A stretch of DNA of 48,313 nucleotides from Elusimicrobiota bacterium (GTDB lineage Bacteria; Elusimicrobiota; Endomicrobiia; Endomicrobiales; Endomicrobiaceae), in NCBI GenBank assembly GCA_031287735.1, contig JAITSO010000019.1:1-48313 (forward strand), given 5' to 3'. Positions 40,070 to 47,440 of this stretch are shown here, one piece after another. Position 1 is the first letter of the stretch. Each line of letters opens with the position of its first letter. Both the position numbers and the translations under genes were made by a program. The notes beneath the pieces were generated by a model. It had not been told where the DNA came from. It ran no database searches and worked only from the letters and a program-made list of their open reading frames with translations.

Positions 40070-40801
40070 TCATCTGTTAATAAGTTCTTTCATGTTCTTA
40101 ACAGCATTTTCAAGACCTTCAAATACTGCTCTTGCTATTATGGCAAAACCTATATTAAATTCACTCATGTCTGGTATTTTGCAAATCGGAAGGCAATTGT
40201 CATAATCCAAACCATGCCCCGCATTTAAAATTAGTCCTTTTTTAACGGCAAAAGTAGAGGCATTGTAAATTCTTGACAATTCCTCTTGCAGCACATCAAA
40301 ATTATTTGTGCTATTTTTAAAGAGATTTGCATATTTGCCAGTGTGCAACTCAACAGCATCGGCGCCTATTTCGTAAGAACTTTGAATTTGTGCTATATCT
40401 GGTTCTACAAATACACTAACTGTTATTGCGGAGTTTTTTAGTTTTAAAATTATTTCAGAAAGTTCCTGCTGATTGTTTTTAACATCAAGACCACCTTCTG
40501 TTGTCAATTCTTCTCTTTTTTCAGGAACCAAACATACGCTATCCGGTTTAGCGTCCAATGCAATTTCTACTATATCTTTGCTTGTAGACATTTCAAGGTT
40601 TAGCTTTATCTGCAAAACATCTCTAATATTGTAAACATCTTCATCTTGTATGTGCCGTCTGTCTTCGCGCAAATGGATAGTTATTCCATCAGCACCAGCT
40701 TTTTGACAAACAAGAGCAGCAGATACTACAGACGGAAAACACTCTTTACGTGCTTGTCTTATAGTTGCTATATGGTCAATATTTACTCCAAGTTTTATCA
40801 T
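40070..40801 (-). CDS. pdxJ: Pyridoxine 5'-phosphate synthase
   Basis: PdxJ condenses 1-deoxy-xylulose 5-phosphate with 3-amino-2-oxopropyl phosphate to make pyridoxine 5'-phosphate, the last ring-forming step of the DXP-dependent vitamin B6 route. The 243 residues start LGVNIDHIATIRQAR, and contain ITIHLREDRRHIQD and EIGADAVELHTG, ending in a LNAGHGLDYDN-type phosphate site, all matching the family. It overlaps glmM (ATGA). The rest of the pathway (pdxA, dxs) is not in the window. Confidence 0.96.
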   Translation of the reverse strand: MIKLGVNIDHIATIRQARKECFPSVVSAALVCQKAGADGITIHLREDRRHIQDEDVYNIRDVLQIKLNLEMSTSKDIVEIALDAKPDSVCLVPEKREELTTEGGLDVKNNQQELSEIILKLKNSAITVSVFVEPDIAQIQSSYEIGADAVELHTGKYANLFKNSTNNFDVLQEELSRIYNASTFAVKKGLILNAGHGLDYDNCLPICKIPDMSEFNIGFAIIARAVFEGLENAVKNMKELINR

Positions 40802-42141
40802 TTAATAGACTCTTTAATTTCTTTTATTATGGAAGAAGCCAAGTTTTGTGCTATGTTTTTTATATTGGATAAGCTTTTCCCTTCGACCATAACTCTCAAA
40901 ATATTTTCAGTGCCGGAATATCTAACCAAAATTCTTCCATTTGTTCCAAGTTCCTCTTCGTGTTGTTTTAAAAGTTTCTGGGTTTTTTTCAAATGCTCTA
41001 TTGGGATTTTTCTATGAACTTTTTTACTTATCAAAATTTGCGGAAATTTGCTGATAACATTCATAAATTCAGACATTGTGGCGTTTTCAGCTGTAACAGC
41101 GTTTAGTAGCATCACAGCACTTAGCAAGCCATCGCCTGTAGGTAGAAAATCGTTAAAAATAAAATGTCCGGATTGTTCACCGCCTAAAGAGGCCTTATGC
41201 TTTTTCATGTCTTCAATAACGTATCTATCACCAACTTTGGAAGCGACAAATTTGATATTTCTGCTCTTTAAACTTTGCACAACTCCTATATTTGCCATAA
41301 CCGTAGAAATCAATACATTATTTTTGAGTTTTCCATGTTTTTTTAACCAAAATGCCATAGAAGAAAGAAAAAAATCTCCATCTCTAATAATACCTTTTTC
41401 ATCAATGCATATAAGTCTATCTGCGTCACCGTCAAACGCAAAGCCACCGAATGCTTTATGTTTTTTTACAGCGATAGAAAGATTTTTTGGATATAAGGCG
41501 CCGCAATTTAAGTTTATATTTTTACCATTGGGTTTAACGTTTAAGACTATAACTTTTGCTCCAAGTTTTTTAAAAACTTTTGGGGCGCTCTTGAAAGCTG
41601 AACCGTTGGCGCAATCTAAAATTATTGTTTTGCCTTGGATGTTTTTGACATGTGAGCTGTCAATTATGAAATTTTCATACAGCTTTAAAAACATCTTGTC
41701 TTCTATGGAAGGTATTTTTTGATTTTTAATTTTAGTTTCTTTTTTTAAATGCTCGTTTACTGCAATTTCAATTTTTCTTTCAATAGTATCAGTAAGCTTT
41801 AGACCTCTTGAATTAAAAATTTTTATTCCATTGTCTCTGTAATGGTTATGGCTTGCAGATATTGCCACCGCACAAGAGAATTTGTGACTTGCAACAACAA
41901 ATGAAGCTGCTGGTGTTGGCATTACCCCACCTAGTATGGCTTTTGAACCGACACTTTCTATTCCTGCTGATAGATGTTTTTGTATTCTTTTGCCGGATTG
42001 TCTAGTATCTCTGATTATAAAAATACGACCTTTTTTGCCTAGTATTTGTGCGATAGATTTTCCAATAATATTGAGAGTTTTGCAGTCAAAAGGAAATTTG
42101 CTAGCATCGCCTCTTATTCCATCTGTACCAAATAGCTGCAC
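40798..42141 (-). CDS. glmM: Phosphoglucosamine mutase
   Basis: GlmM turns glucosamine 6-phosphate into glucosamine 1-phosphate for UDP-GlcNAc, a precursor of peptidoglycan and surface glycans. The 447 residues show LFGTDGIRG at the start, the active Ser loop AISASHNHYRDNG (His where Pro is usual), metal-binding FDGDADRLICID, and the phosphate loop VRYSGTEN. The GTG start at 42141 has GGAG 8 bp upstream and overlaps the TAG stop of the preceding CdaR-anchor ORF by one base; an upstream in-frame ATG at 42168 reads through that ORF and is rejected. Confidence 0.95.
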   Translation of the reverse strand: MQLFGTDGIRGDASKFPFDCKTLNIIGKSIAQILGKKGRIFIIRDTRQSGKRIQKHLSAGIESVGSKAILGGVMPTPAASFVVASHKFSCAVAISASHNHYRDNGIKIFNSRGLKLTDTIERKIEIAVNEHLKKETKIKNQKIPSIEDKMFLKLYENFIIDSSHVKNIQGKTIILDCANGSAFKSAPKVFKKLGAKVIVLNVKPNGKNINLNCGALYPKNLSIAVKKHKAFGGFAFDGDADRLICIDEKGIIRDGDFFLSSMAFWLKKHGKLKNNVLISTVMANIGVVQSLKSRNIKFVASKVGDRYVIEDMKKHKASLGGEQSGHFIFNDFLPTGDGLLSAVMLLNAVTAENATMSEFMNVISKFPQILISKKVHRKIPIEHLKKTQKLLKQHEEELGTNGRILVRYSGTENILRVMVEGKSLSNIKNIAQNLASSIIKEIKESIK

Positions 42142-42242
42142 TACAATACTCCGTTTACGTAAAGCCAAACAAGAATAGCAAGACCTAAAGCTAAAAGCTT
42201 ATGCTTCCAATTTTTTATAATTTTTGTATAAAATTTTTTCAT
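42141..42242 (-). pseudogene. 33-codon ORF resembling the CdaR/YbbR membrane anchor only
   Basis: Reverse-strand codons from ATG at 42242 to TAG at 42141 give a 33-residue peptide. It has a basic start (MKKFYTKIIKNWKHK) and one hydrophobic helix, LLALGLAILVWLYV. This NW-K-LALxLAxLxWLYV pattern is the N-terminal anchor of YbbR/CdaR proteins, which in many bacteria are encoded between cdaA and glmM and regulate c-di-AMP synthesis. The periplasmic YbbR repeats are absent: the frame stops one base into glmM. A ribosome site (GGAGG, and GAGG close to the ATG) is present, so it may be a remnant or a functional micro-protein translationally coupled to glmM. Confidence 0.6.
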
Positions 42243-42273
42243 CCTCAAAACCTCCATGTGCTAGTCAAAAAAA

Positions 42274-43770
42274 TTATTTAAAGTAGTTTTTGCCAGGACG
42301 AATTATTATTGTCTCTCCAATTTTTATGCTTTTCTTTTTAGCTAGATTGCGGTTGTCTTCATGTATTGCTTTTACAGACGTGCTGTAAGTTCTTGCTATT
42401 TTTCCGAGATATTCTCCCTCTGCTACCTTGTGTTTAATGAGACCCGGCGAAGGGTTCAAGTCAGGGATATTTTTTATGTTTTCTAAGAATTTTGACTTGC
42501 TTCCATAAGGAATTTTTACCTCAAAATTAGGGTACCCATGCGGCGTGCACCAAGCTTTTAATGCGGGGTTTAATTTTTTTATTTCTTCAAGTGTTGTCTC
42601 GGCACATTTAGCTATTATTTTTAAATCCACAACTTCATTTGTCACATATTTATCGTAAACTAAAGGTTGTGCGTAATTTAAATTCTTAAAACCATACTGT
42701 TTTAAATTTTTGCCAATTGTTACTGCAGCAATGAACTGCGGAACATAGTTTTGTGTTTCTTTTGGAATAGCTTTTCGTGCTACCATTTCTGATACGTCAA
42801 CAGCATTTGAAAATTTCATATCACGCAAAAGTCCATATTCGCCTCTGTTGTAGGCTGCAAGCACCAAATGCCAATCATTTAACATAACATAAAGTTGTTT
42901 TAAATATAGACAAGCTGCTTGAGTAGATCTTTCAGGGTCTAACCTTTCATCTATCCAATAATTTATTTGTAATCCCAAGGCTCGGCCTCTATGCGACATT
43001 ATTTGCCACATTCCTGTAGCACCGGCTCTTGAGACAGCTTCGGCATTGTATAAGCTTTCAACTACAGGAAGATAAAACAATTCTTCCGGGAGATCAAATT
43101 TTCTTAAACTTTGCAACACAATATTTTTATACGCTCCACTTCTTTCTAAAGCAAGCGTAACTCTTTCTTTGGATTTTCCGTTTGAATAAATCGAAATGTA
43201 ATTTTCTATCAAAGAACGGTTTTTGGTTGTCATAGGAATGGAACCACTTAAGTTTTGTGACAAATCAGAGTTTTCGTCTGCCTCATAAAAACTTTTTAGT
43301 TTAGCAACAATTGATCCAATATCATCAAGAAGAAAATAGTAAATTTCTGGTTCTATAGCCGAATGTTCCAATTCTTTTAAGAGAATATTGAAATGTTTTT
43401 TTGCAACGGCATAATCTTTCTTTTTAAGACTATCAACGGCTTTTTGGTATTCTTTTTGAGCATCTGCAATTTGCGTTTTTGCCTTTTTATTGCTCTTTGC
43501 TTTTGAAATGGCATTCGCTATTTTTAGAGCAGAACTGTCAGATTCGTCAGCCGGATAAAATAAAGAATCGTCTGAAGTATCACCAAATTTCTCATTGCTG
43601 TTATTTTGCCCGGTTACATTTAAATCTATTTTGTTCGTAGCATCAGCAGGCAATTCTTGTTTGTTTCGTTCTACAAGAGTATCATTGTGGCTTATCGTGC
43701 TTGCATACGAGCAATTCAAGAAAAGCAACAATAAAGCAATGCTATGGAAAAAATGGTGTTTCTTTTTCAT
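42274..43770 (-). CDS. mltD: MltD-like membrane-bound lytic transglycosylase
   Basis: This 498-residue murein hydrolase has a signal peptide (KKK, hydrophobic core, SYA), a variable charged spacer (about residues 30-230), an SLT lysozyme-like domain with catalytic Glu in LPVVESLY, GATGMWQIM and AAYNRGEYG, and a C-terminal LysM repeat (HKVAEGEYLGKIARTYS) for peptidoglycan binding. No lipobox is seen, so it may be periplasmic rather than a lipoprotein. It is 31 bp upstream of the CdaR-anchor ORF and glmM, giving a cell-wall-related transcript. Confidence 0.9.
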   Translation of the reverse strand: MKKKHHFFHSIALLLLFLNCSYASTISHNDTLVERNKQELPADATNKIDLNVTGQNNSNEKFGDTSDDSLFYPADESDSSALKIANAISKAKSNKKAKTQIADAQKEYQKAVDSLKKKDYAVAKKHFNILLKELEHSAIEPEIYYFLLDDIGSIVAKLKSFYEADENSDLSQNLSGSIPMTTKNRSLIENYISIYSNGKSKERVTLALERSGAYKNIVLQSLRKFDLPEELFYLPVVESLYNAEAVSRAGATGMWQIMSHRGRALGLQINYWIDERLDPERSTQAACLYLKQLYVMLNDWHLVLAAYNRGEYGLLRDMKFSNAVDVSEMVARKAIPKETQNYVPQFIAAVTIGKNLKQYGFKNLNYAQPLVYDKYVTNEVVDLKIIAKCAETTLEEIKKLNPALKAWCTPHGYPNFEVKIPYGSKSKFLENIKNIPDLNPSPGLIKHKVAEGEYLGKIARTYSTSVKAIHEDNRNLAKKKSIKIGETIIIRPGKNYFK

Positions 43771-44071: not shown

Positions 44072-47000
44072 ATGCTATTAGATAACAAGACGCAGTCAGA
44101 TGGAAAGCCATTTAAAGTTGTGGATTTTCTCAAGCAAAATGCCGGTCAAGGAGAATTGAACCTTGTGACGGCTTTTTTTTCGGTCAATGTGCTTGCTTTG
44201 CTACATGATAAGCTCAGCTGTATAGAAAAATTTAAAATGGTTTTAGGAAAATTATCTCAGCAAGATATGCTTTCTGACAAAATTATTGATTTGCTTGTTC
44301 AAGATTTAAGCATAGACAACAGTTTGTCATTGTCGTGTTGTGCCAAAAGAGCTATTGATTTTTTAAAGCAAGACAAGGTAGAGATAAAAACTGTAGAACG
44401 CAATTTTTGTCATGCTAAAACTTATATCTATAAAGATAGCGATATCCGCAAATGCTTTCATATTATTGGCAGTTCTAACCTCACAGACGCCGGTCTTGGA
44501 ATGCACGACAGCAGCAACATAGAACTAAACACAGCTACTTATAGTGCTAATAACGATTGGAAAGAAGCTCAGTTTTGGTTTGAAAATTTATGGAAAAATA
44601 CTGCATTAGAAAAAATAGAAATGCCAGACAAAACGAAAATTTCTGCAAAGCAACACATCATAGATATGCTATTTAATATGTGCAAGCAATACAGTCCAAA
44701 AGATTTATATTACAAAGTATTGTATGAGCTTTTTAAAACGGACTTGCTTTCACTTTCCAAAGATGCTGATTTTAACGCTGAAATTCAACATTTAAAAGAA
44801 ACCGTTATTTATAAAACTTTGTACCCATATCAACAAAGTGGTGTAATTAGTTTAATTGCGATGTTGCAAAAGCATAACGGAGCAATTCTGGCTGATGCTG
44901 TAGGTTTAGGTAAAACGTGGACAGCTTTAGCAGTTATGAAATATTTTCAATCAAAAGGTTATACTGTTATTTTATTTTGTCCTAAAAAGCTGGAAAACAA
45001 TTGGCGCCAATACAAAGGTCAAAATTCAAGATTTGAAAAAGATGAGATAGACTACATTGTCCGCTATCATTCTGATTTACAAGATGAAAGATTAGATGTG
45101 GTGCATTATCCTGATTTTCCACTCTCAAAAATTTGTCGCAAACAAAAACTTTTAATAGTAATTGACGAAAGCCACAATTTGCGAAATGACAAATCTTCCC
45201 GTTATAAATATTTTGTTGATAAAATTTTGCAGCCGCAAAAAGCTAACAACGACGTGAAAATTTTGCAATTGTCAGCTACGCCGATTAATAACAAATTGCT
45301 TGATATTCGCAATCAGTTTAAGCTGATATCTAGAGGTCAAGACGATGGGTTCAACGAAAAACTGCAAATTAAAAGCTTAGAGTCTTTATTTCGAATTGCT
45401 CAAAAAGATTATGTAGATTGGATTAATACATATAACCATAAAATATCTGATTTTATTGAAAAACTGCCGGAAAAATTCTTCCATTTAACAGATTCGTTGA
45501 TAGTTGCCAGAACGCGAAGGTTGATTGAAACTAAATTTGGGACAATGCGTTTTCCAAAAAAAGAAAAGCCTATAAATGAATACATTGCACCTGAAAATAT
45601 TGGAAATTTAAAAACTTTTGACGACATTCTTGATGCCATAAAAGTTGATATGACTGCCTACCGACCTTCAAATTACATAGAGGAAAGAAAGCACGCAAGA
45701 AGTGTTTTAGAAGATGAGGTTAAAAGAGAGTCTTTTCTTGTGAGAATGATGTATATTTTGCTGATAAAAAGATTAGAATCAAGTTGGCATTCATTTAAAA
45801 TTACTGTTGAAAAAATTCTCGAATCTCATAAAAACGCTTTAAATAAAGTTAACATGTTTATTGAAAAGGAAGAGGAAAGTTATATTGACGACGAGCTAGA
45901 CGAAAACGATAGAGAAAATTTGCAAGACAGTGCTACTGAATTGCCAATTGAAGAAAATTTTGAATTAGGAAAAAGAAATCCTATAAAACTATCGCAGATT
46001 ACTGAAATCAAAAAATTTCAAGAAGACCTAAAAAAAGATACTGATAAATTGCAAAAATTGCAGAAAAACCTTGAAGTTTTCGAAAGTGAATTTAACGAAA
46101 ATATCTCAAAGACAAATGATGTTAAATTTGAACGGCTCATAAAAATTATTAAAGAAAAAGAAAAACAAGAGAATAAGAAAATTTTAATTTTCACTGTCTA
46201 TTCTGATACGGCAAATTTTTTGTACAAAGAGTTAAAAAAACGAAATTTTAAAAACTTGGGTTTTGTTTCTGGAAACCAAAGCGAAACTTTTGACGGATAT
46301 TCAGGTAAAAAATTTGAAATAATTTTGGAACGCTTTGCTCCTTATACCAAACTCTATAATGAAAAAGACTGGTCAGCGTTGTATGAAAAACATTTTAATG
46401 ATGACAAGTATTTTGTTGATGGCAAATGGAAAGTTTCTTATGACAAATGGTTAGAAGCAATTGAAAAACACGACGCTGAAACTTTAGAAAAGATAAGAAA
46501 ACCGATAGACGTTTTAATTAGCACAGATTGTTTAAGCGAAGGTCAAAATTTGCAAGACTGCGATATGGTTGTAAATTATGACATTCACTGGAATCCTGTT
46601 CGGCTCATTCAGCGTATGGGACGCATAGACAGAATTGGTTCGCCAAATAAGTCAATAAAAGGAATAAATTTTTGGCCTGCAAAGGGTTACGAAGGGTACT
46701 TAAATCTGAAGACAAGAGTAGAAAACAGAATGGCGATAATGACTTTAGCCGGAACAGAACTAGACAACAACTTAACTCCAGAATTTAAAGAGATAGTTAA
46801 GGAAAATCCTTTAATTTCTGAACAGACTCAAAAAATGCTCCAGCAAATGCAGCTCACTTGGGACGATATTGAAGACAATCAAGAAACACTTGGACTAAGC
46901 GACCTCTCGCTTGAACAGTTTAGACAAGACCTTTTTGAATTTTTCAAACAAAAAGAAGATTTTTTCAAACAAATGCCCAACGGGATTTTTTCAGGTTTTA

Positions 47001-47440
47001 AAATCTACCCTGACAAAAAGTACATTTCAATGGTTGATAGCATTGTAGCCGTATTAGGTTACCCAAAGCGTCCTGAGAACGTAAAAGATTACACTTATTC
47101 TAAAATTCACCTTTTGCATCAACCTATTGACGCAATGTCTACTGGTTCTGTTTTAAAAAACCGGCAGGAGGTTTTAAGTTTTTTGCGTTTCCATAAAGAG
47201 GAAGAGCGGTATGTTCCCGATAAAATAGAAAAAGGAGATAGTAACGAATTGCAAAAGTTGTCAAAAGCCATTGATATTTGGTTAAAATCTCAAATAGAAC
47301 CAACCGCAATTGGCGGTATTAGAAATTTATTTTCAGACAGCACAAATCTACAAACCACTTCGCCAGAACAAAAAAAAATAGAAGAAGAATTCAAAGCAAA
47401 AAATTTTGATTTAATTACGTGGACTATAATTACGAAATAG
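44072..47440 (+). CDS. PLD-SNF2 helicase fusion, possible restriction/defence protein
   Basis: This 1122-residue protein has an N-terminal phospholipase-D-like part with a single HxK motif (His114, Lys116, in HAKTYIY, then GSSNLTDAGLG), followed by an SNF2/superfamily 2 helicase: Walker A ADAVGLGKTW (about residue 274-284), DESH box (365-368), LSATP motif III, a charged coiled insert (about 600-700), and helicase C motifs ending QRMGRIDRIG (about 846-855). Such PLD-helicase fusions are common in restriction-modification and phage-defence islands. It stands alone on its strand; no methylase or nuclease is seen in the window, though the gene entering at 48313 could be a partner. Confidence 0.85.
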   Translation: MLLDNKTQSDGKPFKVVDFLKQNAGQGELNLVTAFFSVNVLALLHDKLSCIEKFKMVLGKLSQQDMLSDKIIDLLVQDLSIDNSLSLSCCAKRAIDFLKQDKVEIKTVERNFCHAKTYIYKDSDIRKCFHIIGSSNLTDAGLGMHDSSNIELNTATYSANNDWKEAQFWFENLWKNTALEKIEMPDKTKISAKQHIIDMLFNMCKQYSPKDLYYKVLYELFKTDLLSLSKDADFNAEIQHLKETVIYKTLYPYQQSGVISLIAMLQKHNGAILADAVGLGKTWTALAVMKYFQSKGYTVILFCPKKLENNWRQYKGQNSRFEKDEIDYIVRYHSDLQDERLDVVHYPDFPLSKICRKQKLLIVIDESHNLRNDKSSRYKYFVDKILQPQKANNDVKILQLSATPINNKLLDIRNQFKLISRGQDDGFNEKLQIKSLESLFRIAQKDYVDWINTYNHKISDFIEKLPEKFFHLTDSLIVARTRRLIETKFGTMRFPKKEKPINEYIAPENIGNLKTFDDILDAIKVDMTAYRPSNYIEERKHARSVLEDEVKRESFLVRMMYILLIKRLESSWHSFKITVEKILESHKNALNKVNMFIEKEEESYIDDELDENDRENLQDSATELPIEENFELGKRNPIKLSQITEIKKFQEDLKKDTDKLQKLQKNLEVFESEFNENISKTNDVKFERLIKIIKEKEKQENKKILIFTVYSDTANFLYKELKKRNFKNLGFVSGNQSETFDGYSGKKFEIILERFAPYTKLYNEKDWSALYEKHFNDDKYFVDGKWKVSYDKWLEAIEKHDAETLEKIRKPIDVLISTDCLSEGQNLQDCDMVVNYDIHWNPVRLIQRMGRIDRIGSPNKSIKGINFWPAKGYEGYLNLKTRVENRMAIMTLAGTELDNNLTPEFKEIVKENPLISEQTQKMLQQMQLTWDDIEDNQETLGLSDLSLEQFRQDLFEFFKQKEDFFKQMPNGIFSGFKIYPDKKYISMVDSIVAVLGYPKRPENVKDYTYSKIHLLHQPIDAMSTGSVLKNRQEVLSFLRFHKEEERYVPDKIEKGDSNELQKLSKAIDIWLKSQIEPTAIGGIRNLFSDSTNLQTTSPEQKKIEEEFKAKNFDLITWTIITK

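Follow-up and report, generated by a model that had tools for sequence, protein, structure and literature searches.

Small accessory subunits of membrane enzymes include CydX and KdpF, each a single helix with a role established by experiment. For the c-di-AMP cyclase CdaA, the described membrane partner is CdaR: according to one account, the two proteins make contact via their transmembrane domains and streptococcal CdaA–CdaR fusions exist (PMC10243994), and a second account has YbbR binding the membrane part of CdaA and GlmM its catalytic part (PMC6368335). GlmM acts at the catalytic domain of CdaA, and the mode by which CdaR regulates CdaA is stated to be unknown (PMC8573169). Our literature search found no study on c-di-AMP signalling in Elusimicrobiota. 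Here we describe a micro-ORF from a genome of this phylum that quite probably encodes a real microprotein, a YbbR-less "micro-CdaR" that would most likely serve as a one-helix membrane subunit of CdaA; we infer its translation, binding and regulatory role from conservation, dN/dS, linkage to cdaA, co-occurrence, fusions to CdaA, kinship with the CdaR anchor and the published CdaA–CdaR contacts.

The micro-ORF locus and a relocated cdaA

The window (that is, the whole stretch of DNA analysed, 48,313 nucleotides) carries a minus-strand run of genes for an SLT+LysM lytic transglycosylase, the micro-ORF, glmM, pdxJ, a type III pantothenate kinase and a TamB-like protein (Table 1). A reading made earlier from the sequence alone (the sequence-only reading) had reported a ribosome site and a one-base overlap with glmM, and both are present: the stretch before the start codon reads GGAGG-TTTTGAGG-ATG, and in the junction TAGTG (42143–42139) the TAG stop (42143–42141) and the glmM GTG (42141–42139) have one G in common. 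The peptide, which has no match in Pfam or NCBIfam, is predicted by AlphaFold2 to form a single helix (residues 3–30, mean pLDDT 82.8). Our family profile has the micro-ORF as its single match in the whole 1.36 Mb genome, with an E value of 3e-14 that is to be read knowing that the peptide itself is among the 46 rows of the profile. On the plus strand, divergent from the glmM run, positions 44072–47440 encode a protein of 1122 aa whose domains are PLD-like, SNF2/ResIII and helicase C.

Table 1. Positions of the micro-ORF, its signals and its neighbours in the window, and of a fused form from another genome.
Feature	Positions	Strand	Details	Basis
micro-CdaR ORF	42141..42242	-	33 aa + TAG, MKKFYTKIIKNWKHKLLALGLAILVWLYVNGVL	family profile, AlphaFold2
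Shine-Dalgarno GGAGG of the micro-ORF	42251..42255	-	8 nt spacing to ATG	sequence
GGAG, likely Shine-Dalgarno of glmM	42149..42152	-	within the final micro-ORF codons	sequence
glmM, phosphoglucosamine mutase	40798..42141	-	GTG start	Pfam PGM_PMM I-IV
pdxJ	40070..40801	-	follows glmM and overlaps its end	Pfam PdxJ
SLT+LysM lytic transglycosylase	42274..43770	-	directly upstream of the micro-ORF	Pfam domains
CdaA-micro-CdaR helix fusion	L003 618-1496		genome G023	

The genome has a completeness of 99.98%, and the closest named relatives that we found belong to Candidatus Endomicrobiellum (Endomicrobiaceae, Elusimicrobiota; GlmM identity 61–62%). The sequence-only reading had found both the YbbR domains and cdaA missing and had proposed a search for such genes. 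A domain search of the whole genome found no YbbR domain, as that reading had it; cdaA, absent from the window as stated, is nonetheless present in the genome, where the only DAC protein lies on another contig (C60:23991-24344, DAC and CdaA_N domains) in the order folP-cdaA-pyrB (pyrB named from sequence). As the usual order in relatives is folP-cdaA-micro-glmM, with the upstream folP-cdaA order widespread, a break must have occurred in the lineage of the window between cdaA and the micro-ORF; the place that cdaA has in relatives is occupied by the lytic transglycosylase, which is found beside the micro-ORF in none of the other loci examined. On a tree, the CdaA of this genome clusters with the CdaA of its own family, and rearrangement is therefore more likely than replacement; a horizontal origin of this cdaA is accordingly not supported. 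The motif of the peptide (see below) is intact even though cdaA has moved off, which argues that the peptide can be retained without direct linkage.

Distribution of the peptide and its association with CdaA

The same single-helix ORF, 24–50 aa long (median 32 aa), is represented by 119 distinct coding sequences across Elusimicrobiota. A first search profile, built from the initial 25 peptides, identified this short ORF next to cdaA in almost all members of the family as well as in further orders and classes of Elusimicrobiota, and a wider fetch extended this to most other families of the phylum having CdaA. By genome-wide profile search, 170 of 336 genomes of the phylum contain the peptide or a fused form, almost always in single copy, and YbbR domains occur in only 3 of 150 sampled; the comparison with related genomes that had been proposed earlier thus recovered a conserved short form. 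Among 77 Endomicrobiaceae genomes, DAC and peptide are both present in 64 and both absent in 13, an agreement that is inflated by the shared locus and by incomplete assemblies, although G131, at 95% complete, has neither. Families f8, f19 and f27 possess CdaA but lack an adjacent peptide of this kind, and the f8 genomes gave zero matches to the family profile genome-wide, so CdaA can do without the peptide, which is not needed everywhere. Among control genomes, those of Thermotogota and Cyanobacteriota are examples with DAC and without a match to YbbR. At the loci in question (L112, L114 and L127–L129 in f8; L153, L160 and L182 in f19; L155 in f27), cdaA is directly followed by a gyrB-like or glmM sequence.

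Three genomes of 0.7–0.8 Mb (G123, G126 and G129; loci L085, L086 and L087) show cdaA decay in progress: stops or frameshifts interrupt cdaA, and the micro-ORF is degraded. In G144 (L184), the micro-ORF lies at a contig end before glmM-pdxJ and the genome has no DAC match; its cdaA may be located in an assembly gap. A 635-aa open frame with overlapping glmM matches at another contig end (G006, L024; contig C14, 1–1905) is probably a misassembly or partial duplication.

The micro-ORF starts no more than 30 nt from the cdaA stop in 107 of 115 cases, and in 52 of the 115 the two genes share an ATGA overlap (exactly −4). Where glmM lies elsewhere, the peptide usually stays with cdaA; this is seen at loci L038–L042, L050 and L052, for genera g9 and g11, and for a large part of family f16. 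The peptide is also fused in frame to the C-terminus of CdaA at L003 (G023), at L069 and L073 (G024 and G034) and at L143 (G233), which the CdaA tree resolves into at least three independent events; among the loci examined, fusions were seen to CdaA only and none to GlmM. A divergent CdaA group (100/100 support) carries a C-terminal helix either alone (f21) or followed by YbbR-like sequence (f22, f28, one f20 and one f14), and the f21 relatives (L168–L180) end at this helix, which is comparable to micro-CdaR. We take the partner of the peptide to be CdaA because the peptide follows cdaA away from glmM and fuses to CdaA, and also because of these divergent CdaA proteins and the damage to the peptide alongside broken cdaA in G123, G126 and G129. 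Covariation (MI with APC; 113 peptide–CdaA pairs, Neff 71) gave top pairs scattered over CdaA, from which no convincing map of contacts emerged.

Within the divergent group, seven CdaA proteins of ~390–440 aa (L035, L036, L167, L171, L175, L176 and L181) have the C-terminal helix and then YbbR-like sequence, and one genome, G057, carries both types, that is, a CdaA–TM–YbbR fusion (L035) and a separate cdaA-micro-glmM operon (L099). A quick tree hints that the f21 TM-only CdaA arose from a CdaA–TM–YbbR ancestor by YbbR loss, a point that the careful tree does not settle.

The sequence-only reading had left the target between GlmM and c-di-AMP, and the evidence favours CdaA. A membrane tether that recruits GlmM for peptidoglycan precursor synthesis, with CdaA incidental, would suit the window's genome, in which the peptide adjoins glmM and not cdaA, and likewise G144, in which the peptide is beside glmM and no cdaA was found, although the contig ends there. 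Such a tether would not be expected to follow cdaA away from glmM or to fuse with CdaA only, and the homologous CdaR anchor contacts the membrane domain of CdaA in two reports (PMC10243994, PMC6368335); we consider this alternative improbable.

Selection on a kept short form

Codon-level selection, a check suggested by the sequence-only reading, was assessed in 29 disjoint pairs, selected so that their CdaA proteins are at least 80% identical, and gave a peptide dN/dS of 0.151 (95% CI 0.119–0.191), that is, purifying selection, with 0.118 in the core between the motif N and last W versus 0.190 in the remainder. The two alternative frames of these codons gave pN/pS values of 0.86 and 1.94. An earlier value of 0.54 from low-pS pairs was discarded, as saturated distant pairs were mixed in, and was replaced by that from the CdaA-identity pairs. 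The conserved motif is N-W-x-[LI]-K-x2-[AS]-x3-A-x3-W (N in 98/113, W in 96/113, K in 112/116, A or S in 116/116, A in 110/116 and W in 113/116), after the last Trp of which the peptide ends within a median of 6 residues. Past the first pair, these residues are spaced by 3–4 as on a helix face, and the periodicity of conservation was marginal by permutation (p = 0.05), so that a conserved face is suggestive only. The N-terminal side is positive (median +3), which points to an N-in, C-out topology and fits the cytoplasmic C-terminus of CdaA.

Selection of this kind bears on the proposal that the ORF is a translational coupler or leader, whose translation loads ribosomes onto glmM and whose peptide is itself unimportant. 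The one-base overlap with glmM, the likely glmM Shine-Dalgarno inside the micro-ORF and the frequent ATGA overlap with cdaA would all be natural in a coupler, but selection acts at the amino-acid level and is confined to the micro-ORF frame, and the motif is kept where glmM lies elsewhere and in the CdaA fusions; we consider the coupler improbable too.

Of the two origins that the sequence-only reading had offered, the minimal membrane peptide kept by selection agrees with a phylum-wide short form under purifying selection, and the deletion remnant does not. A full cdaR reduced to its 5' end, drifting since the YbbR part was lost in the window's lineage, would explain why position and anchor match cdaR exactly in a genome without YbbR. 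However, a remnant or pseudogene should evolve neutrally with an unconserved short form, whereas here the same short length is kept across the phylum with its own Shine-Dalgarno and a dN/dS of 0.15, fusions to CdaA recur, and just 3 of 150 genomes bear YbbR; real decay looks different, with broken cdaA and damaged peptide together. A private deletion remnant is thus rejected as very improbable. A chance ORF, that is, a hydrophobic reading of unselected intergenic DNA, is refuted by the single genomic match, the phylum-wide conservation and the dN/dS, even if A+T-rich DNA commonly contains short ORFs and many occur in the window.

Kinship with CdaR and comparison with known systems

In the Clostridia-containing phylum (the phylum holding locus L034), the micro-family profile has matches in 116 of 199 genomes. 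Most of these (E to 4e-10) fall on the N-terminal anchor of an ORF of 230–450 aa, a length in keeping with full-length CdaR. The search there revealed no convincing micro form that stands alone; a few short weak matches were partly examined. The match to CdaR N-termini and the order cdaA-micro-glmM in relatives uphold the earlier view of a match limited to the CdaR/YbbR anchor in the position of cdaR, and this homology rests on ~20–30 positions. Set against the CdaR/YbbR-domain family (PF07949), the peptide lacks a YbbR domain, has the CdaR-type N-terminal single transmembrane anchor in its profile match and predicted helix, and lies between cdaA and glmM in relatives, with the glmM side alone retained in the window. 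Judged from its sequence, then, the peptide falls outside CdaR if the YbbR domain is taken as defining, and reads as the CdaR anchor alone by position, anchor and motif. An ancient cdaR truncation, fixed and kept, is the likely origin of the micro form.

We propose that micro-CdaR is the N-in/C-out transmembrane anchor of CdaR, which would have dropped the extracytoplasmic YbbR domains and kept the CdaA-touching part. It would most likely pack via its conserved face onto the three-helix membrane domain of CdaA, and this packing is predicted to set CdaA dimer assembly or activity, while the cytoplasmic cyclase domain in that complex would be where GlmM acts. We suggest more tentatively, as a possibility that falls a little short of probable, that what CdaR conserves in order to work on CdaA is the helix of its anchor by itself. 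The c-di-AMP cyclase of an entire phylum would then be served by a one-helix subunit of 32 residues, either a microprotein in trans or a fused helix in cis, and mostly without an extracytoplasmic sensor; CdaR would have a core role in building or gating the CdaA membrane assembly, with YbbR as an optional sensor module. The natural helix-only form, a conserved microprotein without a Pfam or NCBIfam match, allows the role of the anchor to be considered apart from the YbbR domains, so that how CdaR regulates CdaA can be tested directly with a 32-residue part.

The closest comparisons in cis are the CdaA–CdaR fusions (those of streptococci, PMC10243994, and the seven CdaA–TM–YbbR ORFs above), in which a CdaR-like helix follows DAC as in L003, L069, L073 and L143, yet YbbR sequence is retained whereas the micro and f21 forms end at the helix. 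With the CdaR of Bacillota, micro-CdaR has in common the cdaA-cdaR-glmM order, profile kinship, and one N-terminal helix that is positive at its inside end and carries this motif, as in NWQLKIICFLLAIVLWFVI of L188; CdaR, however, runs on into extracytoplasmic YbbR domains (~230–450 aa), whereas the micro form stops after the helix. CydX and KdpF, although unrelated to micro-CdaR in sequence and partner, resemble it in having ~30 residues, a single helix and a gene that shares an operon with the enzyme served.
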